From the NCBI GenBank assembly GCA_910574935.1, contig CAJTCU010000005.1, forward strand, positions 91,581 through 155,580: a stretch of DNA of 64,000 nt, in the 5' to 3' direction. The notes beneath the pieces were generated by a model. That model saw only the letters and a list, made by a program, of their open reading frames with translations. It did not search any database and was not told the DNA's origin. This document shows positions 1,383-57,363 of the stretch, piece after piece (positions within the stretch are counted from its first letter, which is position 1; each line of letters begins with the position of its first letter). The position numbers and the translations under genes are program-made. The DNA comes from Oscillospiraceae bacterium. GTDB taxonomy: Bacteria > Bacillota > Clostridia > Oscillospirales > Acutalibacteraceae.

Positions 1383-3545
1383 ATGGACCATATCATTGAA
1401 AATCTTTCTCAAGAGCTTCATGTTCGTCCAGAACACGCCCAGGCTGTGGTGGCCCTTTTAGACGAGGGCAATACCGTGCCTTTTATTGCCCGCTACCGTA
1501 AAGAGCAGCACGGCACCATGGACGACCAGACCATTCGCACGCTGGCCGACCGGCTGCAATATCTGCGGGGCCTGGACCAGCGCAAGGCCGAAGTCATTGC
1601 CGCAGTGGCCGCCCAGGAAAAGCTGACCCCAGAGCTGGAGGCTGCTGTGAACGCCGCCGCCACCCTTACCGAGGTGGAGGACTTGTACCGCCCCTACCGG
1701 CCCAAGCGCAAGACCCGGGCCAGCGTGGCCCGAGACCGGGGCCTGGAGCCCCTGGCCCAGGCGGTATGGACCGGCAAAGACCCCGAGGGCAGGGCCCTGA
1801 CCCTGGCCGGCCTGGAGGCGATGGCCAAAACCTTTGTGGACGAGGAAAAAGGTGTGGCCACCCTGGAGGAGGCCCTGCAGGGTGCTGGGGACATTATTGC
1901 CGAGGATTTTTCCGATGACGCGGCCCGCCGCAAGGTTCTGCGGGAGAATATCAATCGCAAAGGAGACTTGCGCTGTGCCGCCAATACAGAGGAGGACACG
2001 GTCTATAGTACTTATTATGATTTTCAGTCGCCTCTGCGCCGGCTGCAAGGCCACCAAATTCTGGCCATGGACCGGGGTGAACGGGAGGGCGCCCTGAAGG
2101 TCTCGGTGCTGCCCGGAGACTTTGGCCCAGTGGGTATGATCTTGCAGGGCGTGGCCCTTGGACATCCCTTCTTTAGCCGCCTACAGGACATTGCTCAGGA
2201 CGCCTGGGATCGGCTGATTTTCCCCTCCCTAGAGCGGGAGGTGCGCAAGGCCCTGACAGAACAGGCCGCAGAACAGGCCATCTCAACCTTTGCCCTCAAC
2301 CTTCGCCCCCTGCTGATGCAGCCCCCGGTAAAGGGCAAGGTCACCCTGGGCTTTGACCCGGCCTATCGCACCGGCTGTAAGCTGGCGGTGGTGGACGAGA
2401 CCGGCAAGGTGCTGGAAACCGCCGTGATCTACCCCACCAAGCCCCATAACAAGACCGAAGAGGCCAAAAAGGTGCTGCGCCGCCTTTGCGAGCGCCATGG
2501 GGTCAGCTGCATTGCCATCGGAAACGGCACCGCCAGCCGGGAGTCGGAAATTTTTGTCAGCGAGTTTATCAAAGAGTATCCTGGCCAGGTTTCTTATATG
2601 GTGGTCAGCGAGGCCGGGGCTTCGGTGTACTCCGCCTCTAAGCTGGGGGCAGAGGAGTTCCCGGACTTTGATGTCAGCCTGCGCTCGGCGGTATCCATTG
2701 CCCGGCGGCTGCAAGACCCCCTGGCCGAGCTGGTGAAGATTGACCCCAAGGCCATCGGCGTGGGGCAGTACCAGCACGACATGCCCCAGGCCCGGCTGGG
2801 AGAGGCTTTGGACGGGGTGGTGGAGGACTGCGTGAATGCCGTGGGCGTGGACGTAAACACAGCCTCCCCGGCCCTGCTGCGGCGGGTGGCGGGGATTACC
2901 CCCACTGTGGCCAAGAACGTGGCCGCCTACCGGGAGGAAAACGGCGGCTTCCGCACCCGGAAGGAGCTATTGAAGGTGCCTAAACTGGGTCCCAAGGCCT
3001 TTCAGCAGTGCGCGGGTTTTTTGCGGGTGCCCGAGAGTGAGAGCGTGCTGGACAACACCGCTGTGCACCCAGAGTCCTATCAAGCGGCGGAAAAGCTGCT
3101 GGCGCTGTGCGGCTATACGCTAAAGGACGTGGGGGGCCTGAGCGAACTGGGCACCCGGCTGGAAAAGCTGGGGGCAGCTAAAGCCGCCGAGGCCTGCGGG
3201 GTAGGCGTGCCCACCCTGCGAGACATTTCCGCCGAGCTGCAAAAGCCCGGCCGGGACCCTCGGGACGAGCTGCCCCCGCCTCTGCTGCGCACAGACGTAA
3301 TGGACATCAGCGACCTGGCTCCAGGCATGAAGCTAAGCGGGGTGGTGCGCAACGTGGTGGACTTCGGTGCATTTGTGGACATTGGTGTACACCAAGACGG
3401 CCTGGTACATGTATCCCAGCTGGCGGACCGGTTTGTGAAAAATCCCAGCCAAGTGGTCACTGTAGGAGACGTGGTGGAGGTGACAGTGCTGGAGGTAAAC
3501 CAGGCGAAAAAGCGCATTGCCCTGACCATGAAAAAACAGGGGTAA
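1383..3545 (+). CDS. tex: Tex-family RNA-binding transcription accessory protein
   Basis: A 720-residue Tex (YhgF) protein. The order is an N-terminal helical region (FIARYRKEQ near residue 35 is typical), a YqgF/RNase H-like fold (TLGFDPAYRTGCKLAVVDE near 322-340), helix-hairpin-helix segments (VNTASPALLRRVAG near 490) and a C-terminal S1 domain (GVVRNVVDFGAFVDIG near 655). Tex proteins bind nucleic acid and act in transcription and RNA handling in the cytoplasm. The family is highly conserved and the length is normal. The start follows a GAGGTAATTTAT Shine-Dalgarno. It appears monocistronic. Confidence 0.95.
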   Translation: MDHIIENLSQELHVRPEHAQAVVALLDEGNTVPFIARYRKEQHGTMDDQTIRTLADRLQYLRGLDQRKAEVIAAVAAQEKLTPELEAAVNAAATLTEVEDLYRPYRPKRKTRASVARDRGLEPLAQAVWTGKDPEGRALTLAGLEAMAKTFVDEEKGVATLEEALQGAGDIIAEDFSDDAARRKVLRENINRKGDLRCAANTEEDTVYSTYYDFQSPLRRLQGHQILAMDRGEREGALKVSVLPGDFGPVGMILQGVALGHPFFSRLQDIAQDAWDRLIFPSLEREVRKALTEQAAEQAISTFALNLRPLLMQPPVKGKVTLGFDPAYRTGCKLAVVDETGKVLETAVIYPTKPHNKTEEAKKVLRRLCERHGVSCIAIGNGTASRESEIFVSEFIKEYPGQVSYMVVSEAGASVYSASKLGAEEFPDFDVSLRSAVSIARRLQDPLAELVKIDPKAIGVGQYQHDMPQARLGEALDGVVEDCVNAVGVDVNTASPALLRRVAGITPTVAKNVAAYREENGGFRTRKELLKVPKLGPKAFQQCAGFLRVPESESVLDNTAVHPESYQAAEKLLALCGYTLKDVGGLSELGTRLEKLGAAKAAEACGVGVPTLRDISAELQKPGRDPRDELPPPLLRTDVMDISDLAPGMKLSGVVRNVVDFGAFVDIGVHQDGLVHVSQLADRFVKNPSQVVTVGDVVEVTVLEVNQAKKRIALTMKKQG

Positions 3546-3619
3546 AAACTTTTTTAGACCACTCCGCATGTGGTTTTATAAAAAGGTCTTGTATACATTC
3601 CCAGCGCCCGCTTTTTCTA

Positions 3620-3648
3620 TTGAAAATATTTCGGAACTCGTGTATAAT
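3620..3648 (+). promoter_or_regulatory. Sigma-A-type promoter of the first GH3 gene
   Basis: TTGAAA (3620-3625), a 17-base spacer and TATAAT (3643-3648), about 64 bases before the GH3 start codon. Confidence 0.6.
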
Positions 3649-3711
3649 ACCTATAGATCTTTTCTGTGTCTTTTTGAGCATAATTTATAGAAAGGAAAGG
3701 CGGAAAAACGG

Positions 3712-9720: not shown

Positions 9721-9766
9721 GGAGAAAGAACCCTTTCTATAAGATAATCTGGTCTTTCCCTTACTA

Positions 9767-9821
9767 GGCCGTGTTTGAAAATAGAGGAAAAGACGGCGCT
9801 TTTGATGCTTCATACAGGGCC
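9767..9821. repeat. 55-bp remnant of the TA-flanked miniature element family
   Basis: Flanked by TA on both sides. It begins GGCCGTGTTTGAAAATAGAG, matching the reverse complement of the right end of the full copy at 30652-30814. It then jumps to AAAAGACGGCGCTTTTGATG, matching that element's other end, and finishes CAGGGCC. It looks like an internally deleted copy in opposite orientation. The rest of 9721-10058 holds only the aroD promoter region. Confidence 0.5.
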
Positions 9822-9985
9822 TAAGCCCAGCGGACGCAGAAAAAGACGCAAAGCGCTGCGGGGTCAGGCAGAGCTCCTAGCGAATTTTTTAGGGGCAGGG
9901 CCCTGATTACGGCATGCTTCCACTGGGCAAGGGGAACACCTTTATATTATATATGAATTTATTCTTACTGGCAATAGGGATTCAA

Positions 9986-15761: not shown

Positions 15762-15764
15762 TAA

Positions 15765-15923
15765 GGCAATACCGCACAATTCTAAGCACCATATTGCGCA
15801 GTCAGATTTTTCTTCAGAGGGTACAGATTGAGCGCCGTCCATCTCACCATTGACCAGCGAAAGCTGTGCGCTATCACGGAAAATGTGCAAGCGAGACGGT
15901 GCTTAGAATTGTGCGGTGTTGCC
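15765..15923. mobile_element. 159-bp miniature inverted-repeat element, ATAA target duplication
   Basis: Terminal inverted repeats of 26 bp (15765-15790 and 15898-15923), starting GGCAATACCGCACAATTCTA on the left, match at 25 of 26 positions. The element is flanked on both sides by ATAA (15761-15764 and 15924-15927). The 107-base interior encodes nothing recognisable. It is therefore a non-autonomous element that needs a transposase from elsewhere in the genome. Confidence 0.8.
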
Positions 15924-15946
15924 ATAAACCTTTTGTGCCTTGATTA

Positions 15947-16108
15947 GCCCCTGTTTGAAACATCGAAAACGCCATCTTATTGCCCAGAAGCGCCTCTTTC
16001 CGCGTCAAAAATCCTGGTGAATCGGGGAAGATTGCCTTGCGTGTTTTTTCTTGCAATGGACCCCTTCTGGACAAAAGTCCCTCATTTCCTCTGTTTTCAA
16101 ACAAGTCC
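15947..16108. mobile_element. TA-flanked miniature element, copy 1 (162 bp)
   Basis: Ends GCCCCTGTTTGAAAC and (reverse) GGACTTGTTTGAAAAC, flanked by TA at 15945-15946 and 16109-16110. The interior shares GAAAACGCC, CCGCGTCAAAAATCCT and CATTTCCTCTGTTTTC with the copies at 30652 and 57043. It is non-coding and lies 23 bases from the ATAA-flanked element. The remainder of the 15762-16248 gap shows nothing else. Confidence 0.75.
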
Positions 16109-16248
16109 TAAATATACCTTTTTTCGGAGGGAACACAGGCAACAGATTTGGGAAAAGCTTGCAAGCGGGGCCGCTTGCAAACTTCTAGTATGGTATCGAT
16201 TAATGGAGGCGGGGATAGGGAGCCTAGAAGATTGCTGTAAAGCGGCCG

Positions 16249-29607: not shown

Positions 29608-30378
29608 CTAGGCCCGTATCTCCGCCTTAATCTTCCCCAGGGCTCCCTTTTCCAGCCGGGAGACCTGGGCCTGGGAGATGCCCACTTGCCCGGCCACCTC
29701 CATCTGGGTCTTGCCTTCCAGGAACCGCATGGAGAGAATGCGTTTTTCCCGGTCGCTAAGGTTGTGGATGGCCTGCTTAATGGCAATTTCCTCCAGCCAG
29801 TCCTCGTCCTTTCCGTCGCCCACCTGGTCCATGATATATACCGGATCGCCTCCGTCCGAGAAGGTAGGCTCGTACAGAGAAACAGGCTCCACAATGGCCT
29901 CCAGGGCCACCACCACGTCCTCACGCTTCAGCTCCAGTTCTTGAGAGATCTCCTCTACCGTGGGTTCCCGGCCGTTCTGGGCGGTAAGGCGCTCTTTGCA
30001 CTGAATGGCCTTGTAGGCGGTGTCCCGCATGGAGCGGCTGACCCGCACAGAGTTGTTGTCCCGGAGAAAACGCCGGACTTCGCCAATAATCATGGGTACT
30101 CCATAGGTGGAAAACTGTACCCCCTGGCTTACATCAAAGTGGTCGATGGCCTTCATCAGGCCAATGCACCCCACCTGGAACAGATCGTCGGGATTCTCGC
30201 CCCGGTTGCCAAAACGCTGGATCACGCTGAGCACCAGCCGCAGGTTGCCATGAATCAGCTTTTCTCTGGCTTCCCGGTCGCCGTCGTGGCTTCGGATGAG
30301 CAGCTCCCGCATTTCGTCACTTTTCAGCACCTTCAGTTTCGCGGTGTTCACGCCGCATATTTCCACCTTGCCTTGCAT
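29608..30378 (-). CDS. sigG: RNA polymerase sporulation sigma factor SigG
   Basis: A 256-residue sigma-70 family factor whose N-terminus GKVEICGVNTAKLKVLK is diagnostic of SigG, followed by region 2 (NPDDLFQVGCIGLMKAID), region 3 and region 4 with helix-turn-helix KTQMEVAGQVGISQAQVSRLE. SigG directs late forespore transcription, so the organism is a spore former. MQGKVEIC is preferred over an upstream ATG because AAGGGGGCC lies 7 bases before it and the homologous proteins begin there. The usual neighbours spoIIGA-sigE are absent from this window. Confidence 0.96.
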   Translation of the reverse strand: MQGKVEICGVNTAKLKVLKSDEMRELLIRSHDGDREAREKLIHGNLRLVLSVIQRFGNRGENPDDLFQVGCIGLMKAIDHFDVSQGVQFSTYGVPMIIGEVRRFLRDNNSVRVSRSMRDTAYKAIQCKERLTAQNGREPTVEEISQELELKREDVVVALEAIVEPVSLYEPTFSDGGDPVYIMDQVGDGKDEDWLEEIAIKQAIHNLSDREKRILSMRFLEGKTQMEVAGQVGISQAQVSRLEKGALGKIKAEIRA

Positions 30379-30403
30379 AAGCAGGGCCCCCTTCCAAGTT
30401 TTA

Positions 30404-30420
30404 GGAGGCGCCATACCTCC
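30404..30420 (-). promoter_or_regulatory. Leader hairpin upstream of sigG start
   Basis: On the minus strand GGAGG-TATGGCG-CCTCC forms a 5-bp stem that hides a Shine-Dalgarno-like GGAGG and an in-frame upstream ATG. A regulatory role is inference. Confidence 0.3.
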
Positions 30421-30651
30421 ATGAATGGTTTTTCAGAGGTATTGTTTGCATTTTTTGCCGGGTTTAAACCAAGGCCTTTGGGCAGCCAAAAGTCAAAAAA
30501 CCTTCCATATATAGAGATTTCCTATAAGGGAGAGAAAAAAATTTTTTCAGTCTGGTTGTGCTAAAACAGTTTACAAGCGGCAGGCGCTTTTACCCATAAA
30601 ACGGGCGAAGGTGCCGCATGAAATTGGTAGCAATCCTCAAACGCCTTTTTA
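30421..30651. other. Intergenic stretch upstream of sigG
   Basis: Non-coding. It contains an AAAAAAATTTTTT tract near 30537 and no ORF I can support. A forespore-type promoter for sigG was sought but no convincing match was seen. Confidence 0.4.
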
Positions 30652-30814
30652 GGGCTTGTTTAAAACATGGAAAACGCCGTCTTTTTACCCAGAAGCGGCC
30701 CTCTTCCGCGTCGAAAATCCTCGTAAAACCGCAAGGATTCCTTGCGGTTTTCCCCCTGGAAGCGGACCACTTCGGGTCAAAAATCCGCCATTTCCTCTAT
30801 GTTCCAACAAGCCC
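30652..30814. mobile_element. TA-flanked miniature element, copy 2 (163 bp)
   Basis: Terminal repeats GGGCTTGTTTAAAACAT and (reverse) GGGCTTGTTGGAACAT, flanked by TA at 30650-30651 and 30815-30816. An internal AAACCGCAAGGA/TCCTTGCGGTTT inverted repeat (about 30726-30751) adds a central hairpin. It has no coding capacity and is the best-preserved copy of the family. Confidence 0.8.
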
Positions 30815-30920
30815 TAGTCTTAAAAGATATTCTGGCGGGTATTTGGAATGACAAAAAGGAGTAAGCAGCGGCAGTTTTGCGGGGCGCCCTACGGTATGCG
30901 GATTTTTATTAAAACGGACC

Positions 30921-30941
30921 CCCCCGGAGCATTCCAGGGGG
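30921..30941 (-). terminator. Possible terminator of the ClC gene
   Basis: CCCCCGGA pairs with TCC-A-GGGGG. On the minus strand it is followed by CCGTTTTAATAAAAAT, about 90 bases past the channel gene's stop. The T tract is interrupted. Confidence 0.4.
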
Positions 30942-31032
30942 ATAATAAGTCCTTCGTTTTCCTCTTGCGTAGGGATAGAGAATTTCCTACTTTGGAAACT
31001 CTGCCAGGTAGATGTTCCTTATAGGCCGGAAA

Positions 31033-32304
31033 TTAGTGCGTGTTCGTGTCAAGGGTTCTGTGCTTCACCTTTGAAAAGCGGATGACCTGGCTGCTGTACA
31101 GCCCAAAATAGCCCGAGAGCACAAAGCTGACCGCAATGGCCAGAGCGAATAGCCCCAGCTCACCGGTAGAGAACAACTCGGCAGCCAAAAAGAGCGTGGC
31201 AATGGGGCAGTTTACCACAGAGCAGAATAGGGCGCACATTCCCACAGCGGCGGCAAAGCTTGGGTCTAGGCCCAGCAGTGGGCCCACCGCGCAGCCAAAG
31301 GTAGCTCCCACAAATAAGGTGGGCACGATCTCGCCCCCTCGAAAACCCGCGCCCACACACAGGGCCGTTAGGATAATCTTCAGCAGAAACGCCCAGGGAA
31401 CTGTTTGGCCGCCTACAGCCTTTTCGATGATATGGGCGCCCGCTCCTGTGTAGTCGTACAGACCGAACAAGACCACCAACAAGGTCATAAGAACCCCTCC
31501 TAACACGATGCGCAGGTAGGAATTTTTTATCAGCTTCTCCGCCCAGTGTGCTGCTTGATGTAGGGCCACACATAGGAGAATGCCTACCCCGCCGCACAGG
31601 GCCGCCAGCAAAGCGGTCTGACCCGCTGTGGCTGGTGTGAGGCCGGGAATGCTGCCGGATAGTTCAAACCGCATGGGGGGAACCCCCAGCAGACCGCTAA
31701 TAAAGAAAGCGGTATAAGAGGCCGCCACACAGGGCAGAAAGGCGTTGTAAGAGATAGACCCCACCACAATGACCTCCAGCACAAACACAGCCGCCGCAAG
31801 AGGCGTGCCGAACATGGCGGAAAAACACGCCGCCATGCCGCACATGGACAAAACCCGGACATCGTCCTCGTCAAAACGGAGCAGCTCGCCAAAATTGTGC
31901 CCTAGAGAGCCCCCCAGCTGCAAAGCCGCGCCCTCCCGGCCCACCGAGGCCCCGAACAGGTGGGAAAGCAGGGTGCCCGCCACAATGAGTGGGGCCAGCA
32001 AAACCGGAATATGCTCGTTGGTGGTTACAGACTGGATGATCAAGTTAGTCCCAGTGCCAAAACTAACTTTACACAGCCGGTATAGCAGCAGAGTAATCAG
32101 ACCCGCACATGGCAGCAGCCAGACGATCAGCGGGTAAGTCTGGCGCGTCTCGGTAGCACGGTCGATCAGAATATGAAAGCAGCTTCCCAAAAAGCCGCAG
32201 ACCGCCCCTATTGCCAGGGCCGCTATGACCCAACGCAAAAATGCCAACAAATACTGCCCAACATCTTTGGAGGCCATCAACATACGATCTTCATTTCTTT
32301 GCAA
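31033..32304 (-). CDS. ClC-family chloride channel/transporter
   Basis: A polytopic membrane protein of about 423 residues with ClC signatures: ASVGREGAALQLGGSLGHNF (the GREGP region with Ala in place of Pro) and GFRGGEIVPTLFVGATFG (the GGxxxP region). About ten to twelve hydrophobic segments are visible. ClC proteins move chloride or fluoride, often coupled to protons. There is no cytoplasmic CBS domain. The start is uncertain: TTG at 32304 lies 6 bases after AGGTGG, GTG at 32313 is the longest option and ATG at 32283 the first ATG. It is a single gene, divergent from the GH3 gene. Confidence 0.88.
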   Translation of the reverse strand: MQRNEDRMLMASKDVGQYLLAFLRWVIAALAIGAVCGFLGSCFHILIDRATETRQTYPLIVWLLPCAGLITLLLYRLCKVSFGTGTNLIIQSVTTNEHIPVLLAPLIVAGTLLSHLFGASVGREGAALQLGGSLGHNFGELLRFDEDDVRVLSMCGMAACFSAMFGTPLAAAVFVLEVIVVGSISYNAFLPCVAASYTAFFISGLLGVPPMRFELSGSIPGLTPATAGQTALLAALCGGVGILLCVALHQAAHWAEKLIKNSYLRIVLGGVLMTLLVVLFGLYDYTGAGAHIIEKAVGGQTVPWAFLLKIILTALCVGAGFRGGEIVPTLFVGATFGCAVGPLLGLDPSFAAAVGMCALFCSVVNCPIATLFLAAELFSTGELGLFALAIAVSFVLSGYFGLYSSQVIRFSKVKHRTLDTNTH

Positions 32305-32470
32305 GAAAGCCACCTTCTCATCCGGTAAAATTTTCTTTCAGATTTCAGTATACTCTCTTTCTCTTGGTTCTGCAAGGGGGATAAAGAGAAAAGTAAAGAA
32401 AATGCCGTGGCATAGGGGGGATGCTTGAAATTTTTTTACAGAATGGTTTGCTTGTATGGTGAATATTCTG

Positions 32471-32513
32471 TTGACATTGCTCTAATAAGTGCTTATAATT
32501 ATAGTGTTAACAC
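32471..32513 (+). promoter_or_regulatory. Strong promoter and palindromic operator candidate of the second GH3 gene
   Basis: Consensus TTGACA (32471-32476), 17 bases, TATAAT (32494-32499), followed by a perfect palindrome GTGTTAACAC (32504-32513) at the expected transcription start. The placement suits a repressor such as a LacI-family sugar regulator. No such gene lies nearby. Confidence 0.7.
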
Positions 32514-32532
32514 AATTTCAAAGGAGGTTGCT

Positions 32533-34767
32533 ATGGCTGAAAAAGAGAAACGCGCTGCTGCTTACCAGGTATACAAAAATCCAGACGGACCGGACATTGG
32601 TACCGCTGGAGCCAATGTTTTAGAGGTGGACGGGCTCTATTTTAAAGATTTAGCCCGCACTGGCTGCCTGCTACCCTATGAGGATTGGCGGCTGCCCGCT
32701 GAAGAGCGCGCCCGGGACCTGGCCGCGCGCATGAGCGTGGAAGAGATCGCCGGGTTAATGCTCTACTCGCCCCACCAGATGGTGCCGTGCCCCGCCCAGG
32801 GGCCCTTCCCCGGCACCTACGGCGGCAAGACCCTGGATGAGAGCGGGGCCGAGCACTGGGCCCTGACGGATCAGCAAAAAACTTTTTTGGAGAAAGATCA
32901 CGTGCGCCACGTGCTGGCTATGGCCTTGGAAAATGCCCGGGTGGCTGCCAACTGGAGTAATGGCCTGCAAAGTTTTGCCGAGGCCCTGCCCTGGGGCATC
33001 CCAGTGAACATATCCAGTGACCCCCGCCACGGCGCCGCCAAGGCCGGGGCGGAGTACAAAAGTGGTGCGCAGGATGTTTCTAAGTGGCCGGAAGGGTTGG
33101 GTATGGCCGCTACCTTTTCTCCCGAGACCTGCCGGGCCTTTGGAGACGCGGTCTCAAAGGAGTGCAGGGCTCTGGGCATCACCACGGCCCTGTTCCCCCA
33201 GGTAGACGTGGCTACCGAGCCCCGCTGGATGCGCCTGGAGGATACCTTTGGCGCCTGCCCAGACCTGGTGACAGACTTCGGCAGGGCCTACTGTGATAGC
33301 TTGCAGACTACCCAAGGCGCCCCTGGCGGCTGGGGTAAGGACAGCGTCTGCGCTATGGCCAAGCACTGGCCCGGCGGCGGCCCCTGCGAGGGGGGCCGGG
33401 ACGCCCATTATCCCTTCGGAAAGTTCGCCGTGTACCCGGGACAGCAGTTAGACGGCCACCTAAAGCCCTTCCTGGAGGGGGTTTTTCAGTTGGACGGCCC
33501 CACGGGCAGCGCCTCGGCCATTATGCCCTACTACACGGTGAGCTGGGGGCTGGACCCTTCGGGCAAGAACATGGGCAACTCCTACAGCCAGTACATCATC
33601 CACGACCTGCTGCGGGAAAAATACGGCTACCAGGGCATTGTCTGCACCGACTGGGGCATTACAGGCGACCCGGTGCCGGAGGTGGACTCTTTTGGCAGCC
33701 GCTGCTACGGGGTAGAGGACCTGACCGAGGGCCAGCGGCACCTGCTGGCCATAGAAAATGGGGTAGACCAGTTTGGGGGCAACTCGGCGGTAGCCCCGGT
33801 GCTGGAGGCCTACCGGCTGGGCTGCCAGAAGCACGGCGAGGCCGCCATGCGTAAGCGTTTTGAAGAGTCCGCCGTGCGGCTGCTGCTAAATATCTTCCGC
33901 TGCGGCCTGTTTGAGAACCCCTACCTGGACCCCGAGGAGAGCGCCGCCACGGTGGGCCGGGAGGACTTTTGCCAGGCGGGCTTTGAGGCCCAGCTAAGGT
34001 CCCTGGTGCTGGTGAAGAACAACGGCGCGCTGCCCCAGCGGGAGCGGAAAAAGGTGTATATCCCAGACCGGCATGTGGCGGCGGGCAAGACCTTCTTCCG
34101 TACGCCCATGCCCGCCCAGACCATCCAACCGGTGGAGCGGGCCCTGGTGGAAAAATACTACGACTGGGCCCAGTCCCCGGAGGAGGCGGACTTTGCCCTG
34201 GTGTTTATGGAGAGCCCCCTCTCCGACGGCTATTCCCAGGCAGACCGGGAGGCCGGGGGAAACGGCTACCTGCCCGTTAGCCTGCAATACAGGCCCTACA
34301 CCGCCCACGCCGCCCGGGAGGAGAGCGTGGCTGGGGGGGACTTCCGGGAGGACTTTACCAACCGCTCGTATAAGGGCAAGACCACGGTAGCCCGCAACGA
34401 GAGCGACCTGGATCTGGTGCTGGACACCAAAAAGGCCATGGGGGAGAAGCCGGTGATTGTGGTGCTGCGGATGCACAACCCCACGGTACCGGCCGAGTTC
34501 GAGCCCTATGCGGACGGAATTCTCGTTGATTTCGGGGTGCAGGGCCAGGCGCTGTTCCAGATGATCAGCGGCGGAGCCCAGCCCAGCGGTCTGCTGCCAG
34601 TGCAGATGCCGGCCCATATGGAGACGGTAGAGCGCCACTGTGAGGACGCCTCCCTGGATATGGAGCCCTACACCGACAGCCAGGGCCATGCTTATGACTT
34701 CGGCTTTGGCATGGACTGGTCCGGGCCTATTGAAGACGGACGTGCCCAGCGGTACGGAAAGAAATAA
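32533..34767 (+). CDS. Glycoside hydrolase family 3 protein, standard domain order
   Basis: A 744-residue GH3 enzyme with the barrel domain first and the C-terminal domain after it. AKHWPGGG (277-279 KHW) and the nucleophile motif IVCTDWG (Asp373) are clear; the second domain spans about 500-740 and ends DFGFGMDWSGP. No signal peptide or fibronectin III domain is seen, so it is probably cytoplasmic. The start is the ATG 6 bases after AAGGAGG; a longer frame upstream runs through the promoter. Beta-glucosidase or beta-xylosidase-like activity is likely, but specificity cannot be fixed. Confidence 0.9.
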   Translation: MAEKEKRAAAYQVYKNPDGPDIGTAGANVLEVDGLYFKDLARTGCLLPYEDWRLPAEERARDLAARMSVEEIAGLMLYSPHQMVPCPAQGPFPGTYGGKTLDESGAEHWALTDQQKTFLEKDHVRHVLAMALENARVAANWSNGLQSFAEALPWGIPVNISSDPRHGAAKAGAEYKSGAQDVSKWPEGLGMAATFSPETCRAFGDAVSKECRALGITTALFPQVDVATEPRWMRLEDTFGACPDLVTDFGRAYCDSLQTTQGAPGGWGKDSVCAMAKHWPGGGPCEGGRDAHYPFGKFAVYPGQQLDGHLKPFLEGVFQLDGPTGSASAIMPYYTVSWGLDPSGKNMGNSYSQYIIHDLLREKYGYQGIVCTDWGITGDPVPEVDSFGSRCYGVEDLTEGQRHLLAIENGVDQFGGNSAVAPVLEAYRLGCQKHGEAAMRKRFEESAVRLLLNIFRCGLFENPYLDPEESAATVGREDFCQAGFEAQLRSLVLVKNNGALPQRERKKVYIPDRHVAAGKTFFRTPMPAQTIQPVERALVEKYYDWAQSPEEADFALVFMESPLSDGYSQADREAGGNGYLPVSLQYRPYTAHAAREESVAGGDFREDFTNRSYKGKTTVARNESDLDLVLDTKKAMGEKPVIVVLRMHNPTVPAEFEPYADGILVDFGVQGQALFQMISGGAQPSGLLPVQMPAHMETVERHCEDASLDMEPYTDSQGHAYDFGFGMDWSGPIEDGRAQRYGKK

Positions 34768-34779
34768 ATAGAAAATAGA

Positions 34780-34816
34780 AGACCGGCGCAGCCTTTTTGC
34801 TGCTGCCGGTCTTTTC
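34780..34816 (+). terminator. Terminator of the second GH3 gene
   Basis: AGACCGGC pairs with GCCGGTCT around a loop, followed by TTTT, about 15 bases after the GH3 stop. Confidence 0.8.
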
Positions 34817-35020
34817 GCATCTCCTGAACAAAATACTAGGAAAACTAGCGCGGTCCAGGTGCGAAGAGTTGGCCCTGTCAACTCTCGGTACCTGGCGGGG
34901 GGGAGTGAGCTCTGCCGGCAGCAGACAAGCTGCGAACCGACCGAGACGCAAAGCCCCAAGGGTCCTGCCGTAGGGCGCGCTCCGTGCGGAGCGGCAGCTA
35001 TTTCGCAAAAAGGAGGTCTT

Positions 35021-35356
35021 TTATTTGCGGAACCGCCCGCCGGTATTGCACCAGGCCACCGCGAAGCCGCACAGCCCCAGCAGCAGAACCAGGTACACCC
35101 AGGTGATCCATGGCAGGCTAAAACAGAACAGCCCCACCCCATACAGTATGGTGGCCAGCCCGCAGGCCAGCAGAATCTTCCCGGTAAACCGGGCCAGGGC
35201 CGGACCGTCCCACTGGGCTTTTTCCTGGGCGCTCATGGTGTTATATCCAGCCACTAACCAAGCGCCCTTGCCCATCAGCAGGGGAACAGACAGGCCGATG
35301 AGGGACAGGGCTACGATCATCAAAATGACAAAGCCTACTATATCCGTTGAAGTCAT
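35021..35356 (-). CDS. DUF3784 small membrane protein
   Basis: A 111-residue protein with three hydrophobic segments (about 5-27, 57-78, 80-100). The segment GKGAWLVAGYNTMSAQEK matches the DUF3784 signature (a Lys-Gly ... AGYNT ... EK pattern). The function of the family is unknown. It follows gpmI by 28 bases on the same strand, with TGAGGTAA before the ATG, and is probably the last gene of the glycolytic transcript. The 34817-35020 region downstream holds nothing I can assign. Confidence 0.82.
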   Translation of the reverse strand: MTSTDIVGFVILMIVALSLIGLSVPLLMGKGAWLVAGYNTMSAQEKAQWDGPALARFTGKILLACGLATILYGVGLFCFSLPWITWVYLVLLLGLCGFAVAWCNTGGRFRK

Positions 35357-35384
35357 AGCAGTTTACCTCATCTGGAGTCTCTTT

Positions 35385-36896
35385 TTATTTTATAATGCTC
35401 TCGCCGCTCATCTCGGCGGGCTGGGGCAGGCCCAGCACTTTCAGCATGGTAGGGGCAATGTCCGCCAGGCGACCGCCTTCCCGCAGCTGGCAGGGGTGGT
35501 TGATCACGCAGAAGGGCACCGGGTTGGTGGTGTGGGCGGTAAAGGGCGTACCGTCGTCATCCACCATCTTGTCGGCGTTGCCGTGGTCCGCAGTCAGCAG
35601 GATGCAGCCGTCCATCTCTTTCACGGCAGCTTCCACCCGGCCAATGCAGGCGTCCACAGCCTCCACAGCCTTGACGGCGGCCTCAAACACGCCGGTGTGG
35701 CCCACCATGTCGCAGTTGGCATAGTTGAGAATCAGGGCGTCGTATTTGCCAGACTTCACAGCCTCCACCATCTTGTCGGTAACCTCGTAGGCGCTCATCT
35801 CCGGCTGTAGGTCGTAGGTGGCTACCGCCGGGGATTTTACCAAAATCCGGTCCTCGCCGGGGTACTGCTTCTCCACGCCGCCGTTAAAGAAGAAGGTCAC
35901 ATGGGCGTACTTCTCTGTCTCGGCAATACGCAGCTGGGTCAGGCCCTTATTAGAAATATATTCGCCAAAAGTGTTCTCCAGGCCCTCGGGCTTGTAGGCC
36001 ACGTCTACGTTAGGCATCGTTGCGTCGTACTGGGTCATGCACACGTAGTTGAGGGGGAAGAAGCCCTTTTTGCGCTCAAAACCGGTAAAGTCTGGGTCTA
36101 CCAGGGTGCGGGTGATCTCCCGGGCGCGGTCGGGGCGGAAGTTGTAGAAGATGATAGAGTCTCCCGCCTCAATGGGCTGGGCGCCCTGGCACACTGTGGG
36201 CACCACGAACTCGTCGGTGACCTTCTGGTCGTAGGAGGTCTGCACCGCGCACACGGGGCACGCGGCCTCTAGGCCTTCGCCATACACCATAGCGGCATAG
36301 GCCTTTTCCACCCGCTCCCAGCGGTTGTCCCGGTCCATGGCATAGTACCGGCCCATCACAGTGGCCACCTGGCCCAGGCCAATCTCCTCCAGCTTTTCCG
36401 CCAGCTCCTTCACATAGTCTTTGCCGCTGGAAGGGGGCACGTCCCGGCCGTCCAAAAAGCAGTGGACAAAGACCTTTTCCACGCCGATATTCTTGGCCAT
36501 GCCCAGCAGGGCGTACAGGTGGGTGTTGTGGCTGTGCACGCCGCCATCAGATAAAAGGCCCATAAAGTGCAGGGCCTTGCCGTTCTCTTTGGCAGACCGC
36601 ATGGCGTGCAGCAGGGCGGGATTCTTCTCCATGTCCCCGTCCTGGGCGGACTTGGTGATACGGGTCAGCTCCTGGTACACAATGCGGCCCGCGCCAATAT
36701 TGGTGTGGCCCACTTCGCTGTTGCCCATCTGGCCGTCGGGCAGGCCCACGTCCATGCCGGAGGCCCCGATCTTTGTGACGGGGTTCTCCTTAAGGATGCG
36801 GTCCAGGTTAGGGGTCTTGGCGGCCACAATGGCGTTGCCCTCATCCGGGGCAATGCCGAAGCCGTCTAGAATCATCAAAACAAGGGGTTTTTTCAT
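35385..36896 (-). CDS. gpmI: 2,3-bisphosphoglycerate-independent phosphoglycerate mutase
   Basis: A 503-residue manganese-dependent mutase interconverting 3- and 2-phosphoglycerate. [10 protein letters not shown] (metal Asp), the active-site Ser in [25 protein letters not shown], and the C-terminal metal site [12 protein letters not shown] are all intact. It lies downstream of pgk and tpiA, giving three consecutive lower-glycolysis steps, and overlaps the preceding small ORF by four bases. Confidence 0.97.
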
Positions 36897-37123
36897 GCTG
36901 TACTTCGGTTCCTTTCGTTATTACTTTTTACGGTGGAGGAGGCTGGCCGCCAGCTCCACGCCGCGAACAGCAGCCCGCCCAAAAGGCAGACCAGGGACAT
37001 CACCGGCAAAAAGGGCCCCAGGCTGTCCAGCGCCAGCTGAAAGGTGACGTTGTTGGCCAGTTTACCGGCGGTCAAAACGGCCGCGCACAGGGATTGGGCG
37101 ATCTTGAACAGCGCGGCCGGCAC
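36893..37123 (-). CDS. Possible small hydrophobic protein between tpiA and gpmI
   Basis: A 76-residue GTG-start ORF with two hydrophobic stretches (about 3-22 and 38-58) and a basic tail. Its TGA overlaps the gpmI ATG (ATGA), an arrangement typical of coupled genes, and it fills the 269-base tpiA-gpmI gap. Against it: no good Shine-Dalgarno precedes the GTG, and I recognise no family. Confidence 0.4.
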
Positions 37124-37165
37124 CCACAGGGTGTGAACATAGCGCCCGCAGCGCTCCTACACGGC

Positions 37166-37936
<771 letters not shown>

Positions 37937-37972
37937 GGTAATTATTCCTCCAAAGTATTTTGCAAATTTTTC

Positions 37973-38074
37973 CTAAATCTTTACAATGAGTTTTGACTTT
38001 TTCTCGGGATCATTTTCAAGCTCGGTGTCATCCGGCGCGTCAATAATCATACGCAAAAAAGCGCGGAACTGCAT
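37973..38074 (-). CDS. Possible 33-residue peptide upstream of tpiA
   Basis: A short ORF, MQFRAFLRMIIDAPDDTELE followed by a Lys/Glu-rich tail, ending 36 bases before tpiA. The ribosome site is weak (AGGACC). It shares F-x-A-F-L-R-hydrophobic-hydrophobic-I with the decayed ORF upstream at 38158-38302, which is the main reason to list it. Confidence 0.3.
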   Translation of the reverse strand: MQFRAFLRMIIDAPDDTELENDPEKKSKLIVKI

Positions 38075-38157
38075 GTCAGTTGGTCCTATAGAAAATTTTC
38101 CTTGCGGTGGCCGGTTTGTGGTCTGGTATATTCGAATTCAGCCTTTCACCGTTCATT

Positions 38158-38302
38158 TTAGTCCAGCAGGGCGGTACTCTCCAGGTCCTCAATCCTTTTT
38201 TTTCAGCAGCTTGTCCTTTTGGGAAGGGGCCCGTTCCGCGCAGATTCATTTCAGCGGGCTAATCACCAGCCGCAGGAACGCGCCAAAAACCTGGTCTTTC
38301 AT
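38158..38302 (-). pseudogene. Decayed small ORF between pgk and tpiA
   Basis: Starts MKDQVFGAFLRLVISPLK and meets a TGA. The same frame continues through SQKDKLLK into a run of eight A residues; removing one A continues as KRIEDLESTALLD to a stop. Exactly one extra base (145 bases in total) plus one internal TGA separate this from a 47-residue gene. The family is unknown. It could instead be non-coding leader. Confidence 0.35.
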
Positions 38303-38363
38303 AGACCGATCCTTCTTTCACAAGAAAGAGCGGAGTCATCCCCCGCCCTCCCGTATAGCAAAA

Positions 38364-39662
38364 TTATTTCTCGTTCAGGCAGGCAATACCAGGCAGCTCC
38401 AGGCCCTCCAGGAACTCCAGGGAGGCGCCGCCGCCGGTGGAAATGTGGGTCATCTTCTCCGCGAAGCCCAGCTTCTCTACCGCCGCCGCGCTGTCGCCGC
38501 CGCCGATGATGGAAATGGCGCCGCTTTCGGCCACAGCAGAGGCTACGCCAATGGTGCCCTTTGCGAAGTTGTCCCACTCGGAGACGCCCATGGGGCCGTT
38601 CCACACCACGGTGGCCGCGCCCTTAATAGCCTCGCTAAACAGCTCAATGGTTTTGGGGCCAATGTCCAGGCCCATCCAGCCCTCGGGAATACTGGTGGAG
38701 TCCACTACCTGGCTCTCGGTGTCGGGGTCAAACGCCTTGCCTACCTTGGTGTCCACAGGCAGCAGGAACTTCACGCCGTTCTTCTGGGCTTTTTCCAGGG
38801 TAGCCTTGGCCAGCTCCAGTTTGTCCTCTTCGCATAGTGAGGTGCCAATGCCATAGCCCTGGGCTTTGAAGAAGGTATAGGCCATCCCGCCGCCGATGAT
38901 CAGGGTGTCTACCTTGCTGATCAGGTTGTCGATCACGCCGATTTTGTCAGAGACCTTCGCGCCGCCCAAAATGGCCACAAAGGGGCGCTTGGGCTCGGTC
39001 AGGGCGCCGCCCATGACGGTGATCTCCTTCTGGATCAGGTAGCCGCACACGGCAGGCAGATAATGGGACACGCCTTCGGTAGAGGCGTGGGCCCGGTGGG
39101 CGGTGCCGAAAGCGTCGTTTACATAAATCTCGGCCATAGAGGCCAGCTCTTTGGCAAAGGCGGGGTCGTTCTTGGTCTCTTCAGCATGGAAGCGGATGTT
39201 CTCAATAATCATCACGTCACCGTCTTTCAGAGCGGCGGCTTTGGCTTTGGCATCGGGGCCGATCACGTCCTTGGCCATAGTCACTTCTTTGCCCAAAAGC
39301 TTACCCAGCTCGGCGGCCACAGGGGCTAGGGAGAACTTGGTCACATCGCCCTTAGCGGCCTCCAGGGCCTTAGCGGTGGCCTCGGCCTGCTCGGCCTGGG
39401 GCATAGCGTCAATCTTTTTCTTTTCCTTCTTGTCCAGCTTCACGGTATCGTTAAAAATATTGTGGGGACGGCCCATGTGAGAGCAGAGAATCACTTTGGC
39501 GCCGTGATCAGAAAGGTACTTTACAGTGGGCAGCGCGCCTACAATGCGCTTGGTGTCGGTGATTGCGCCGTCCTTCATAGGGACGTTAAAGTCGCAGCGG
39601 ACCAGAACCCGCTTGCCGGCTACGTCAATGTCCTCAACGGTCTTTTTGTTCAAATAGTTCAT
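38364..39662 (-). CDS. pgk: Phosphoglycerate kinase
   Basis: A 432-residue kinase making ATP from 1,3-bisphosphoglycerate. [37 protein letters not shown] and the nucleotide-binding [19 protein letters not shown] segments are present. It is some 30 residues longer than typical Pgk because of a Lys/Ala-rich insertion (about 62-95, [11 protein letters not shown]...), placed after the Arg-Pro of the first substrate loop. It is first in the glycolytic cluster, with a promoter and AAAGGAGTG upstream. Confidence 0.97.
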
Positions 39663-39722
39663 GTTGGAGCACTCCTTTTGTATAGAGATAAGGTGGCGGT
39701 AACGAACAGCCTACTACCAAAT

Positions 39723-39751
39723 ATTGTATAACAAAACGCGGCTGTTTGCAA
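39723..39751 (-). promoter_or_regulatory. Promoter of pgk
   Basis: Minus strand TTGCAA (39746-39751), 17 bases, TACAAT (39723-39728), about 60 bases before the pgk start. The -35 box lies inside the terminator stem of the upstream GNAT pseudogene. Confidence 0.6.
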
Positions 39752-39775
39752 GTAGAACTTTGCGAAAACAGCCGC
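39738..39775 (-). terminator. Terminator of the GNAT pseudogene
   Basis: GCGGCTGTTT and AAACAGCCGC form a perfect 10-bp stem. On the minus strand it is followed by GTTTTGTT. Confidence 0.75.
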
Positions 39776-39800
39776 GCGAGGGTAAATTTTCCAGGGATTC

Positions 39801-40489
39801 CTAAATTCGAAAGGCATAAATATCCGCCTGCTGTCCTTCATGGGTAAAGCTGCGCTGGTAGACGCCGCCGTTACGCTTGATTACCTTTACCGAGGGGAGG
39901 TTTTCCCGCTCCACAGAGATATACAGCGCTGTCAGTCCCACCTCTTTGGCCCGGTCCAGCACCTGCCCCAGCATCTGCCCCGCATAGCCTTTTTGGCGCT
40001 GGCTGGGCCGCACATTGCAGCCGCAGTTGCCCAAGTCTGCTAAAAAGTCATTGAGAGTATGGCGTAGGTCAATGATGCCCACAATCTTGTCCTCTCCGTC
40101 CATTGCGAAAAACGTGTCGGTTCGCACCCAGCTAGGGCGTGTTCCCATAAGCAGAGTATGCGGATTTTGGAGTAAATTTTTGTCAGATTCAAGACGAAAA
40201 TTCGCAGACGTACTCGCGTACTTCAAGAATTTTCAACGAAGAAGATGACAAAAATTTGCCAAAAAGACGCGTACGAACGCTTATGTGAACACGCCCTAGG
40301 GCTTACGGTCTCTGGGGCCGCGTTTTTTGTGACGCTATCCAGCCAGTCCTCATAGCACTCGGTTTGGTCCAGCAGCTCGCTGCCAAACATCACCGGCTCG
40401 CCGGAACTGAAAAATTCCTGCCGAAAAGCCAGCGCGCGCTCCTTGTGGTTTTGGCGGGGAACTTCCAGATGAATCCGTTTGTTTTTCAT
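39801..40489 (-). pseudogene. GNAT acetyltransferase gene interrupted by a miniature element
   Basis: The 5' part (40298-40489) encodes MKNKRIHLEVPRQNHKERAL... to PETVSP. The 3' part (39801-40134) encodes SWVRTDTFFAMDG, the acetyl-CoA loop VRPSQRQKGYAGQML, and ends ADIYAFRI. Deleting the 162-bp element and one TA joins them in frame (…VSP-SWVRT…), giving 525 bases and 174 residues, the normal size of this GNAT group. As it stands the 5' part runs into the element and stops at residue 88. The 3' part retains the acetyl-CoA site but has no plausible own start. The gene is most likely inactive. Confidence 0.85.
40135..40296. mobile_element. Miniature inverted-repeat element inside the GNAT gene (162 bp)
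   Basis: Terminal repeats GGGCGTGTTCCCATAAGC and (reverse) GGGCGTGTTCACATAAGC, flanked by TA at 40133-40134 and 40297-40298. Size, TA duplication and GGGC-TGTT ends resemble the other TA-flanked family in the window, but the interior differs. TA duplication fits Tc1/mariner-IS630-type transposition (inference). Confidence 0.85.
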
Positions 40490-40518
40490 GATAACATACG
40501 CCTTTGCGTATTCTTTGT

Positions 40519-41151
40519 TTATGGATCGGATGAACGCTCTCCCTCCGCGTCCTCATAGCACATTCGCTGTGCCGTAAGGGTTTGTAATATCTCGTCAAAG
40601 ACTTTCTCCCGTTGAAGGGAGGTCTCATAGTAGGGCAGGCCCAGCTTTTGGCACTGGTCCCGAATCATTCGGCTTTGTTCCACCAGGTATTCGCAGCCCT
40701 CCATGCGCTCTTCGTCAGAGAGACAGTAGCTGTAGTCCTCTGGCGTATCATATTTTTTCTGGATGTCAAAGCGCTCCTGAGGGGTTACGTCGGCGGTAAG
40801 AAGATAGAAAATATCGCAGACCGCCGGGTTCAGGAACTGGGTATAGTCCTCTGGCAGAAGTTGGTACATGTCAATGACCATAGGCCCGTTTTTCTGGTCG
40901 TATTCCTCTTGGCTGGTCATAACCTCCAGGAAAGGGGCCATCTTTCCGCTGATGATGCGGAGAATCTCTGCCGAGGGCTTCCCTGCGTTTACAGCGATGC
41001 CGGTGTCCACCCCGGTTTGGGGGAAGCAGCGTTCGAACCCGGCGATCACCGCGTCCATGGAGATATGCTGCCAGCCAAAGGACTGGGCCACCCGGCGGGC
41101 CAGGGTGCTTTTGCCAGACCGGGGCACCCCGGCAATGATGAGATGTTTCAT
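40519..41151 (-). CDS. P-loop NTPase, kinase-like
   Basis: A 210-residue protein with an N-terminal Walker A GVPRSGKST (residues 8-16), an ISMDAVI segment like the substrate-binding strand of small-molecule kinases, and a Walker B-like GPMVIDMYQL near 90. The C-terminal third is helical and charged. It resembles adenylate/shikimate-kinase-like proteins of unknown substrate common in Firmicutes. The start has AAGGAGACTCACC. It has no operon partner that reveals its role. Confidence 0.75.
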   Translation of the reverse strand: MKHLIIAGVPRSGKSTLARRVAQSFGWQHISMDAVIAGFERCFPQTGVDTGIAVNAGKPSAEILRIISGKMAPFLEVMTSQEEYDQKNGPMVIDMYQLLPEDYTQFLNPAVCDIFYLLTADVTPQERFDIQKKYDTPEDYSYCLSDEERMEGCEYLVEQSRMIRDQCQKLGLPYYETSLQREKVFDEILQTLTAQRMCYEDAEGERSSDP

Positions 41152-41211
41152 GGTGAGTCTCCTTAATGAATTTCTAGATGAGACAGCGCGGTGCCCGCGC
41201 CCCTTGATTCC

Positions 41212-44200
41212 CTACTCCGGCGCCTTCATGCTTTCCACCATACTGATATTTGCCAGCTTCTTATACATCACCAGGCTTACTAACAGGCTGAACAGGAAGG
41301 TCAGCAAAGTGGCGAATATATAGCTGAGGGGGTAGATATTCCGGCCGAACATTACTAGGTCCACCTCTGCGGTGCGGATGACAAACTGGTGCAGCACAAC
41401 GCCCAGCAGCAGCCCCACCCCGGTTCCAATCAGGGTCAGCATGGCGGACTCACGGTAGATATAGGCAGCCACCTCGCTCTGGTAAAAGCCCAGCACCTTG
41501 ATGGTGGCCAGCTCTTTTTCCCGCTCGGTAATATTGATGTTGGTCAGGTTATATAGCACTACAAAGGCCAGGGCCCCCGCCGAGATAATGAGCACCAGCA
41601 CAATGGAATTGATGCTTTGCAGGCTATTATGAAAGCTGGCGGAAAGCTCTTTGGTAGAGGTGGTCATGGCCACGCCGCCGCACTGGAGCAGGTCCGTGGT
41701 CAGGGCCTCTTCACCGCCCCGGGGGCCCTCTTCCGGTAACTTACATAATAGGGAGTTTACCGTGGCTTCCTGGCCAAAGGCCTCCTGGTAGGCAGCAGGG
41801 GAAAGGTATAGGTAGTGGTGTACATAGTTTTCGCAAATATCGGTTATGACAAAGCTGGCCTGATCTTCATCCTGATTTTTCACAGTAATACGATCTCCTA
41901 CCGAGAGACGGTGGCGCTCCGCCAGCTTTTCTGTAATAATGACAGAGTTTTCGTTATAGTCCACAGGCTGGCTGTCTGTGCGGTGGCGGAAGTGGAAAAA
42001 CTCTGGCAGCCGGTCCCCTTGGGGTGTGGCGAAAATAGTCACACTGTCCTCTGGCCGGCCCGCTTCTGGTATCACCGTGCCACTGTCCTGTAGGGCGGGC
42101 AGGTAGTCCAGCACCCGGTCCTTACCGGACAAAATCTCCATAAGACCAGGAGTTTCCAAAGCCTCGCTTTCGTTTAGGGCCACAATAAGCTGATACTGGG
42201 ACAGCTGGGTATATTGCAGTTCCACAATGTCGGAGATGGAGTCCCGTATGCCAAAGCCTGTCACCAGCAGAGCCGTGCACCCGGCAATGCCCAGCACGGT
42301 CATGAAAAAGCGTTTTTTATAGCGGAACAGGTTGCGGGCGGTTACCTTTTGGGTAAACTTCAGGCGGCTCCACAAGGGGGTGATATATTCCAGCAGAATG
42401 CGTTTGCCCGCCTTGGGGGCTTTAGGCAGCATCAGCCGGGCAGGGACCTCCTTTAGGGCGTGCCAGCAGGCAGAGAGGGTGGCCGTCAGGGTACACAGCA
42501 CAGCCGTTACCGCCGAGACCAGCGCCAGGGTCCAGTTAAAGGGCGTCAGCGCCTGGGGCAGGTCGTACATGATATTATAGGCATTCACAATAATAGTGGG
42601 GAACAGCCACATGCCCACAGCCACCCCCGCCGCGCAGCCGAAAAGACTGGCCGCGGCGGCATACAGCAGGTACTTGGCGGCAATGGAGAGGGAGGAATAC
42701 CCCAGGGCTTTCATGGTGCCAATAAGCTGCCGCTCTTCCTCCACCATGCGGGTCATGGTGGTCAGGGCCACCAGCGCGGCCACCAGGAAGAAGAACACCG
42801 GGAACACCTGGGCAATGGCGGCAATCTTGTCCGCGTTGTCCGCGTAGCTGGAAAAGCCCGCGTTGTCCTTTCGGTCAAAGATATACCACTCGCAGGCCTC
42901 TATTTTGTCGATATCCGCCTGGGCGTCATGGATCTTCTCCTCCGCGTCGGCCAGTTCCCGGTCCGCGTCGGTCCTGCCAGTTTCGTACTCATCCCAGCCC
43001 TGGGCCAGATCCTTTTTGCCATCCTCCAGCTTTTGCAGGCCCTCGTCATAGTCGGCCTGTCCCTGGGCCAGGTCCTTTTCCGCCTGGGCAAACTCTGCCT
43101 CGGCGTCCCGCATGGCCTGCTGCAAGGCGGCCTCCGAGCGGTCCAGCTCCGCCTTTTGACTGGTAAGCTGGGCCTGCTGCTGTTCCAGCTGGGTTAGCTG
43201 GGCGTTTAGCTGCCGCTGGCTCTCTTCCAGGCGGGTCCGGGCCTGCTGGGCCTGGGCCAGGCCTGTGTGATACTGGGCCAAACCTGTCTCTATGGCCTGC
43301 CGGGCCCCGGCAGTGTCTGTGCCTTGAGCAGCCAGGGCTTCCAGCCCTGCCTTTAGTTGCGCAAAGGCCTGGGCGGCTTCTGGGGCCAGCTGTTCCAGCT
43401 GGGAAATCAGGGCTAGGGTGCTTTGGTCGCTGCCGTCTCCGGCAGGTAGGCCCAGCTGGGCGGCGGTCTGTTCCAGCGCTGCTTTTCCCTGGTCCAGAGC
43501 GTCCAGGTTGGCCTGGGTCTTGTCCAGCTCCTCTTTGGCTCCGGCCAGTTCCGCTTCGTTGGCGGCCAGCTCTTCAAAACCTCCGTTCAGCTGGGCTTGG
43601 GCGGTGCGCAGCTGGGCCCTGCCGCTGTCGATCTGGCTTTGGTAGCCGCTGATCTGGTCCCGGCCATCGCGAATCCTTTGTTTGGCATCCGCTGTTTCCG
43701 CCTGGTATTTGGTCCGCCCCTCTTCCAGCCCCTTGCGGCCGTCAGCCAGCTCCTGTTCGGCGTCGGCCAGCTTTTGTTCGCTGTCGGCCAATTTCTTCTC
43801 TCCGTCCTGAAGCTCCTTTAGGGCTTTCTCCAGCTCTTCCTCAGCCTCTTTTTTTCCATCCTCATACTCTTTGCGGGCGTCGGCTAGCTGGGCGTTGGCC
43901 TCGTCCATAATATCTTGATACCGAATCCCCGCCCGCTGCTCTCCCAGGGCTTCCAGCTTTTCGGCAGCGTCCGCCACCAGTTGCTCATAGGCCCCGTCAA
44001 AGGCGTTCAGCTCTTGAGAACCCTCCAAAGTCAGATAGGCCGTGGTATAATAGTCCTGGTCAAAGTTCTCGGCTACGGTATAGGCCATAAGCCCCAGAGA
44101 ACCCGATCCGGCGGTGGTGTATTCCTGCTCTAAAGACATATATAGCGGGGTTTTAACCGTACCCACCACAGTAAACTGTCGGGGCAGGGCTTCGTTTTCC

Positions 44201-56965: not shown

Positions 56966-57042
56966 GGAAGCTGGGCGCAAGCACGCGTTGTTTGCGGTCC
57001 AAACCACCGCTAACTCGGTTAGAAAATTGTACAGCACATCTA

Positions 57043-57205
57043 GGATTTGTTTGAAACATCGAAAACGCCGTCTTTTTGCCCCGAATAGGCCGCTTTCCGC
57101 GTCCAAAATCCTCGTCAACTGGGTTCGGGCCGGCTTGCGGTATTTTCCTTGAAATGGACCTCCCCTGGCCCCAAATTCGTCATTCTCTCTATGTTCAAAA
57201 GGCCC
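57043..57205. mobile_element. TA-flanked miniature element, copy 3 (163 bp)
   Basis: Left end GGATTTGTTTGAAACATC after TA (57041-57042); right end (reverse) GGGCCTTTTGAACATAGAG. It shares GAAAACGCCGTCTTTTTGCC and CCGCGTCCAAAATCCTCGT with copies 1 and 2. The right flanking TA has become TC, so this copy is older. The rest of the 56966-57395 gap holds the feoB terminator. Confidence 0.7.
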
Positions 57206-57363
57206 TCCTCGCTTTCGAAGTGTTCAGGCGGAATCCCAGCGCTTTCGTGCTTTTTTGTTTTGCCAACAATAAATTTACCCCCTGAATCCGCGTACCATCC
57301 CACAGTTTCTAACAGGAAAGGCACCGGAGCCAAAGCCCTGTTGTGGAAAAAGGAGAAGGAGAA

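Follow-up and report, generated by a model that had tools for sequence, protein, structure and literature searches.

The window, the whole stretch of 64,000 nucleotides that was analysed, comes from a gut bacterium and carried a GNAT-type acetyltransferase gene that was split into two parts by a 162-bp hairpin (GGGCGTGTTCCC...GTGAACACGCCC) with a TA on either side (Table 1). The sequence-only reading had already placed a TA-flanked element here, and its coordinates were exact. The 162 bp and one TA amounted to 164 bp, a length that three does not divide, and the gene was thus broken into two open reading frames (ORFs). The ORF on the N-terminal side had 88 residues, of which 64 were native, and its native part ended with ETVSP. 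The ORF on the C-terminal side had 141 residues, 110 of them native from SWVRTD onward, and started with a TTG within the element; a TTG-initiated product of 141 residues from the split locus is possible. Neither half showed any further stop or frameshift. The terminal inverted repeats of the hairpin had 1 difference in 18 positions, and all ORFs of at least 60 aa that touched the element entered it from the flanks, with no transposase ORF inside the 162 bp. The sequence TAGGGC was present at both junctions, so the copy alone cannot fix its own boundary; the flanks of other copies of the family point to the TA as the boundary. A scan of the window for TA-flanked inverted ends, in which 3 mismatches over 18 positions were tolerated, gave two elements, this one and one other, and three shuffled windows yielded 1, 0, and 0 in the same scan, so the inverted ends alone were not decisive. 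When positions 40133-40299 were folded as DNA, the single strand formed one hairpin from end to end, with an energy of -43.1 kcal/mol versus -15.58 kcal/mol (sd 2.77) for the shuffled sequences (z -9.94), and none of the 200 shuffles was as stable.

Table 1. Features at the split gene and members of the hairpin family in the window (positions are those of the window; type A and type B denote kinds of element ends)
Feature	Position	Strand	Basis or remark
Hairpin MITE, 162 bp, type A ends GGGCGTGTTCmCATAAGC	40135..40296	(-), the strand of the family model	Sequence, fold, copies elsewhere, model match
TA, one copy of the target duplication	40133..40134	.	Sequence; flank census
TA, other copy of the target duplication	40297..40298	.	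Sequence; flank census
Split GNAT gene, N-terminal part, 64 residues	40298..40489	(-)	Aligns before the junction in homologues
Split GNAT gene, C-terminal part, 110 residues and stop	39801..40133	(-)	Pfam; aligns after the junction
Phosphoglycerate kinase (pgk) ORF (label by eye), syntenic neighbour	38364..39662	(-)	428/432 residues as in G014
P-loop ORF (label by eye), syntenic neighbour on the other side	40519..41151	(-)	201/210 residues as in G014
Full-length member, type B ends, TA on both sides included	30650..30816	(+)	One of the 35 model sequences; empty in G014
Degenerate member between likely genes	15945..16110	(+)	97.4 bits
Degenerate member between ComEA-like and FeoB-like ORFs (labels by eye)	57041..57207	(+)	90.5 bits
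Short family remnant	9765..9823	(-)	35.6 bits, E 1.4e-7

The C-terminal piece of the GNAT gene was searched against 60 genomes, including the one that carries the window (G000, the own genome), and some match was found in 33 of them. The best match outside the window's own locus was 89% identical and came from a genome of the same genus, G014. Its 13.8-kb contig was collinear with window positions 29984-43277, with blocks that were 92-96% identical and unaligned stretches of a few hundred bases. At this locus (L039), the two flanks of the hairpin aligned at positions 6-1835 and 1831-2837 and abutted without extra sequence. The 5-base overlap between the two alignments was AGGGC, which was found at both junctions in the window. 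The GNAT gene of G014 was a single open frame of 171 residues. In G014 the site read CCAG, opposite CTAG in the window, and the TA that preceded the insertion in the window lineage is therefore one that we infer. The collinearity of the protein was analysed with the two halves kept apart and never joined, using the ten closest homologues among the extracted loci (L039-L048, 65-89% identical). The results showed that in all ten the halves lay in one frame, with the expected number of residues between them and no extra residues. A paralogue in the own genome (G000:C55), which was 63% identical, was likewise collinear across the junction. Homologues carrying the 162 bp as coding sequence would have spoken against an insertion, and none was found among the ten. 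The precise insertion suggested by the sequence-only reading was thus confirmed by the empty site in G014, where the gene order was kept, and by the halves abutting in every homologue examined; colinearity across the junction, for which it had asked, was found with the halves aligned separately. The opposite history, in which the 162 bp are ancestral and were excised precisely in G014 and the other homologues, is conceivable because elements of this kind can in principle excise precisely, but it requires a precise loss in all ten homologues examined, and the copy in the window was 98% like another copy in the own genome. We regard this history as extremely improbable. The insertion had also been described as recent, which held in relative terms only, given the 98%-identical copy at G000:C8, the absence of the element in G014, and the lack of other lesions in the halves.

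The C-terminal piece alone exceeded the Pfam cut-offs for Acetyltransf_1 (37.5 bits, cut-off 20.7) and Acetyltransf_3 (37.1 bits, cut-off 25.4), and three intact homologues also exceeded the cut-offs of both families. For the N-terminal piece by itself, neither Pfam nor NCBIfam gave a match at E up to 0.1. In the search of the separate halves against the named resistance acetyltransferases of NCBIfam, the best score was 19.3 bits versus a cut-off of 170; no resistance family came near its cut-off, and the gene was therefore treated as a general GNAT gene. In the comparison with G014, the dN/dS of the C-terminal half was 0.47 (8.0 synonymous and 13.0 nonsynonymous differences, which are small counts). 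The value of the N-terminal half was 0.68 (8.5 synonymous and 22.5 nonsynonymous differences, again small counts), and it was inflated because the G014 frame was out of register with the other homologues over about its first 15 residues. The corresponding values of the neighbours were 0.17 (P-loop ORF), 0.106 (tpi), and 0.026 (pgk). Additionally, one of the ten homologues (L042, from G010) carried an in-frame stop. The GNAT gene appears dispensable, given its paralogue and the lesions seen in two other genomes. The insertion could therefore be real and yet have hit a gene that was already dispensable or decaying, so that nothing that mattered was disabled. The higher dN/dS of both halves relative to the three neighbours, the aberrant 5' end in G014, the stop in G010, and the 63%-identical paralogue all favour this possibility, but both halves in the window were open and had no other lesion, and the other nine homologues were stop-free throughout. 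We consider it rather unlikely, and the loss of GNAT activity through the insertion likely. The earlier description of a disabled acetyltransferase therefore stood with regard to the split frame, whereas the loss of function itself is what the split frame suggests, and the relaxed constraint and the 5'-end changes in G014 leave room for a gene that was perhaps already dispensable.

Two further full-length copies with type A ends were found in the own genome, at C8:31971 (98% identical) and C1:233534 (92% identical). Both were located between long gene-like ORFs and were overlapped by short or antisense ORFs. The 98%-identical copy (L186 2972-3137) lay just upstream of an ORF for a 711-aa GTPase of the translation-factor type (3161-5296; label by eye). 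Matches to the 162-bp element were found in 11 of the 60 genomes including the own one; nine of the 11 belonged to the same genus, and the other two, in other families, gave weak matches (E 2.6e-5 and 7.8e-4). A search for the exact end in a collection of named genomes, from which the own genome is possibly absent, gave 18 stretches, 16 of them from Acutalibacter/Neglectibacter-type bacteria or other Clostridia. The remaining two (L109 and L111; contigs JAQVKF010000113.1 and JAQVKF010000090.1) came from a MAG of the Thermoguttaceae, which is remote from the other hosts, and are possibly due to chance; by our own estimate, about 7 chance matches to the exact end were expected in this collection.

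A search of the own genome for the end pattern, in which at most 3 mismatches were allowed, yielded 12 end-like sites, compared with 1 in the reversed control. Two of these sites bounded an element of 808 bp, TA included (L074, G000:C1:638298-639105). Its ends differed from the MITE ends by 2 of 17 bases on each side, and a TA was present on both sides. The element held two overlapping ORFs matching DUF4096 (73 bits, cut-off 34.3), DDE_Tnp_1 (54.3 bits, cut-off 23), and the NCBIfam IS5 transposase model. With this model (NF033580), the second ORF scored 112.2 (cut-off 110), and the first ORF alone scored 89.8, which was below the cut-off. Inspection by eye revealed no sequence common to L074 and the MITE beyond the ends. 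At L074 943-1494, the IS5-family element adjoined an ORF resembling a site-specific recombinase (label by eye) that started at its border; this ORF may have been interrupted by the element. Only 8 of the 29 same-genus genomes contained relatives of the second ORF at E up to 0.001. Full-length type A copies were present in eight genomes, and in four of these (G013, G014, G024, and G026, all less than 90% complete) no transposase relative reached that threshold. L080 carried another element of the L074 type, found by its pattern; its two ends were unlike at 4 of the first 14 bases, and it escaped a scan for IS ends that tolerated 3 mismatches. That scan covered the surroundings of 26 transposase loci and gave candidate pairs at 13 of them, some of which are probably due to chance. 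Clear IS ends of other types were GAGTCTGTTTTAAAAC (L097), GGCCTTGTTTGAAAA/GAACTTGTTTGAAAA (L103), and GAGTCTGTTCTCAC (four copies in G022).

At the loci with weak matches, a similar core was found between different ends. The 162-bp element is one branch of a family of hairpin MITEs of about 165 bp with at least three types of ends. With up to 2 mismatches, TAGRGCTTGTTTGAAAA occurred at 243 sites in the own genome and TAGAGYCTGTTTTAAAA at 67, each against 1 site in the control, and some sites were common to both lists. A total of 65 distinct paired-end stretches were extracted from the family loci, one of which (L100) was an IS fragment. For the census of target sites, the 6 stretches without TA at both ends were left out. 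Among the other 59, 55 sat at YTAR, 21 of them at CTAG, compared with 15.6% YTAR and 2.8% CTAG among the background TA sites of the window. An element that adjoins another family member creates CTAG by itself, so 15 such cases were left out in a recount; without these and the IS fragment, 39 of 43 elements were at YTAR and 9 at CTAG.

To cover the family more widely, 35 elements (161-169 bp), hand-picked for spread, were aligned and a covariance model was built. The model matched at least 148 places in the own 4.2-Mb genome at E up to 0.001, when the best 150 of 1925 candidates were scored; a few of these places overlap. Across the 60 genomes, where stricter filters were applied and at most the best 48 candidates per genome were scored, at least 25 genomes had a match. 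These comprised 16 of the 29 same-genus genomes and nine genomes of other genera, two of which had at least 36 and at least 45 matches; under the same filters and scoring, the other 13 same-genus genomes had none. The copy in the GNAT gene, which was one of the 35 model-building sequences, scored 163.6 bits. According to the model, the window contained four full-length members and one remnant, and two of the four were among the model-building sequences. The site of the member with type B ends read ACGCCTTTTTAGTCTTAAAAG in G014, inside an XRE-like ORF (label by eye). This ORF was whole in G014; in the window the member sat in what is left of it, and the greater part of the ORF, upstream, was absent. 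A member at positions 5169-5333 of the G014 contig was absent from the window, and the flanks differed, so it was not a clean reciprocal case. Four of the six copies with an inspected neighbourhood sat between likely genes. No description of this hairpin MITE family was found among the listed titles and abstract openings from searches of openly licensed literature.

Several further arrangements were observed. One MITE of type B and one of type C lay side by side with one TA in common at L076 1021-1347, L129 1186-1517, L135 1194-1517, and L141 1281-1546, and these pairs look as if one element had inserted at the edge of the other. At L134 1501-1668 and L150 1353-1517, elements had one type B end and one type C end, and they are possible recombinants between the subfamilies. 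Extra short palindromes were present at the hairpin tip in L157, L172, L183, and others (a 186-bp class) and in L016 and L036; these tip palindromes differed between type B and type A elements. A different inverted-repeat stretch of 161 bp, with ends AGGCAAYACCGCACAATT and TA on both sides, was located at window positions 15762-15926. In L003 similar sequence adjoined a family member, and in L077 it lay close to a stretch resembling an element.

The changes in the two arms of the hairpin were analysed in the alignment of the 35 elements. The RNAalifold structure of the mixed alignment contained only 19 pairs and was replaced by a structure from the column pairing of the alignment, and covariation was compared with 500 shuffles and with slid partners. 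Standard pairs were found in 90.9% of the 1572 stem cells versus 78.8% in the shuffles (0/500 reached the observed value), an excess that is partly built in, as the structure was derived from the same alignment. In 198 stem cells, both sides were changed and pairing was kept, compared with 74.6 (sd 6.6) in the shuffles (0/500) and with at most 67 for the slid partners. The covariation score was 0.357 versus 0.156 (0/500), and the slid partners remained well below the observed values of these three measures. The two measures that, according to the tool, relatedness misleads least showed no excess: pairs with a change on both sides numbered 20 versus 17.8 (reached by 56/500 shuffles), and further pair types numbered 59 versus 58.1 (228/500). 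In pairwise counts, double changes in type A elements occurred at 3.5 times the rate expected under independence, with 337 of 427 complementary; in type C elements, only 51 of 115 (0.44) were complementary. For complementary double changes, a chance level of 1/3 is too low, since it ignores transition bias. Over 122 sequence pairs, which are not mutually independent, a run-length test for template switching gave 8 adjacent double changes versus an expected 4.3. These results are suggestive of arms that change together. Part of the signal is inherited from the divergence of the subfamilies, and it could stem either from selection for the fold or from template switching between the arms. It is conceivable that the hairpin was selected as a folded strand, for example as single-stranded DNA in transposition or in an RNA role after insertion, and that structured MITEs swapped end types to suit different IS5 transposases and kept their core. 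This idea is weakened because two of the five covariation measures did not exceed the shuffles, and we hold it to be improbable. A further possibility is that the GNAT gene still works and the hairpin is a functional folded element, such as a structured RNA or an intervening sequence that is either removed or active post-transcriptionally. The very stable hairpin and the stem pairing with its double-changed cells across the 35 members are in accord with such a function, but the same two measures were no higher than the shuffles, no Rfam family (structured RNA or self-splicing intron) reached its gathering score in the window and nine loci, and the copies were dispersed with a TA/YTAR preference, most of the inspected ones between likely genes. 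We hold a functional fold that spares the gene to be very improbable.

The best explanation, to which we give a probability of about 95%, is the insertion of a MITE at a YTAR site, trans-mobilised by an IS5-family transposase, that split the GNAT gene. It builds on several observations: the insertion is exact, the relative has an empty site, the family shows a target preference and further copies, and the own genome holds an IS5-family element whose ends are almost those of the MITE. An IS5-family transposase recognising ends like GGGCSTRTTCACATAAG would mobilise the non-autonomous MITE in trans, and the MITE would insert at the YTAR site in the GNAT gene with duplication of the central TA. 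The gain of 164 bp shifts the frame and splits the protein ahead of the GNAT domain recognised by Pfam. The candidate transposase of the L074 type probably moved the MITE, as its ends and ORFs suggest, and the activity of the acetyltransferase was presumably lost with the frame. The insertion event is of a known kind and ordinary in itself. Its value lies in a clean gene disruption by a MITE with an empty-site control in a relative, and in a large family whose single core is combined with several end types (at least 148 places in the 4.2-Mb genome, among the best 150 candidates scored). The family provides a natural data set on how bacterial MITEs maintain their palindromes and follow different transposases.

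The element resembles other prokaryotic MITEs in being short, in lacking a transposase gene, and in having inverted ends of the IS type, a target duplication, and dispersed copies. Unlike the prokaryotic MITEs named here, it forms a hairpin over nearly its full length, and its family has one core with several end types. L074 resembles the IS5 family in its DUF4096 and DDE_Tnp_1 matches, its two overlapping ORFs, its match to the IS5 model, the TA at both ends, and ends close to those of the MITE; unlike the insertion sequences of that family, the MITE codes for nothing. Within the family, L074 may resemble IS427. IS427 is one group of the IS5 family according to PMC12730594. Archaeal MITEs share only their borders, generally under 20 nt, with their autonomous partners, as PMC3852290 states, and similarly only the ends were common to the MITE and L074. 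Template switching, a kind of mutation by which the two arms of a hairpin regain their pairing, is described for RNA genes in PMC8794818. Such a process could explain the arms that change together in the MITE family, with the difference that the hairpins in that paper belong to RNA genes and those described here to MITEs.
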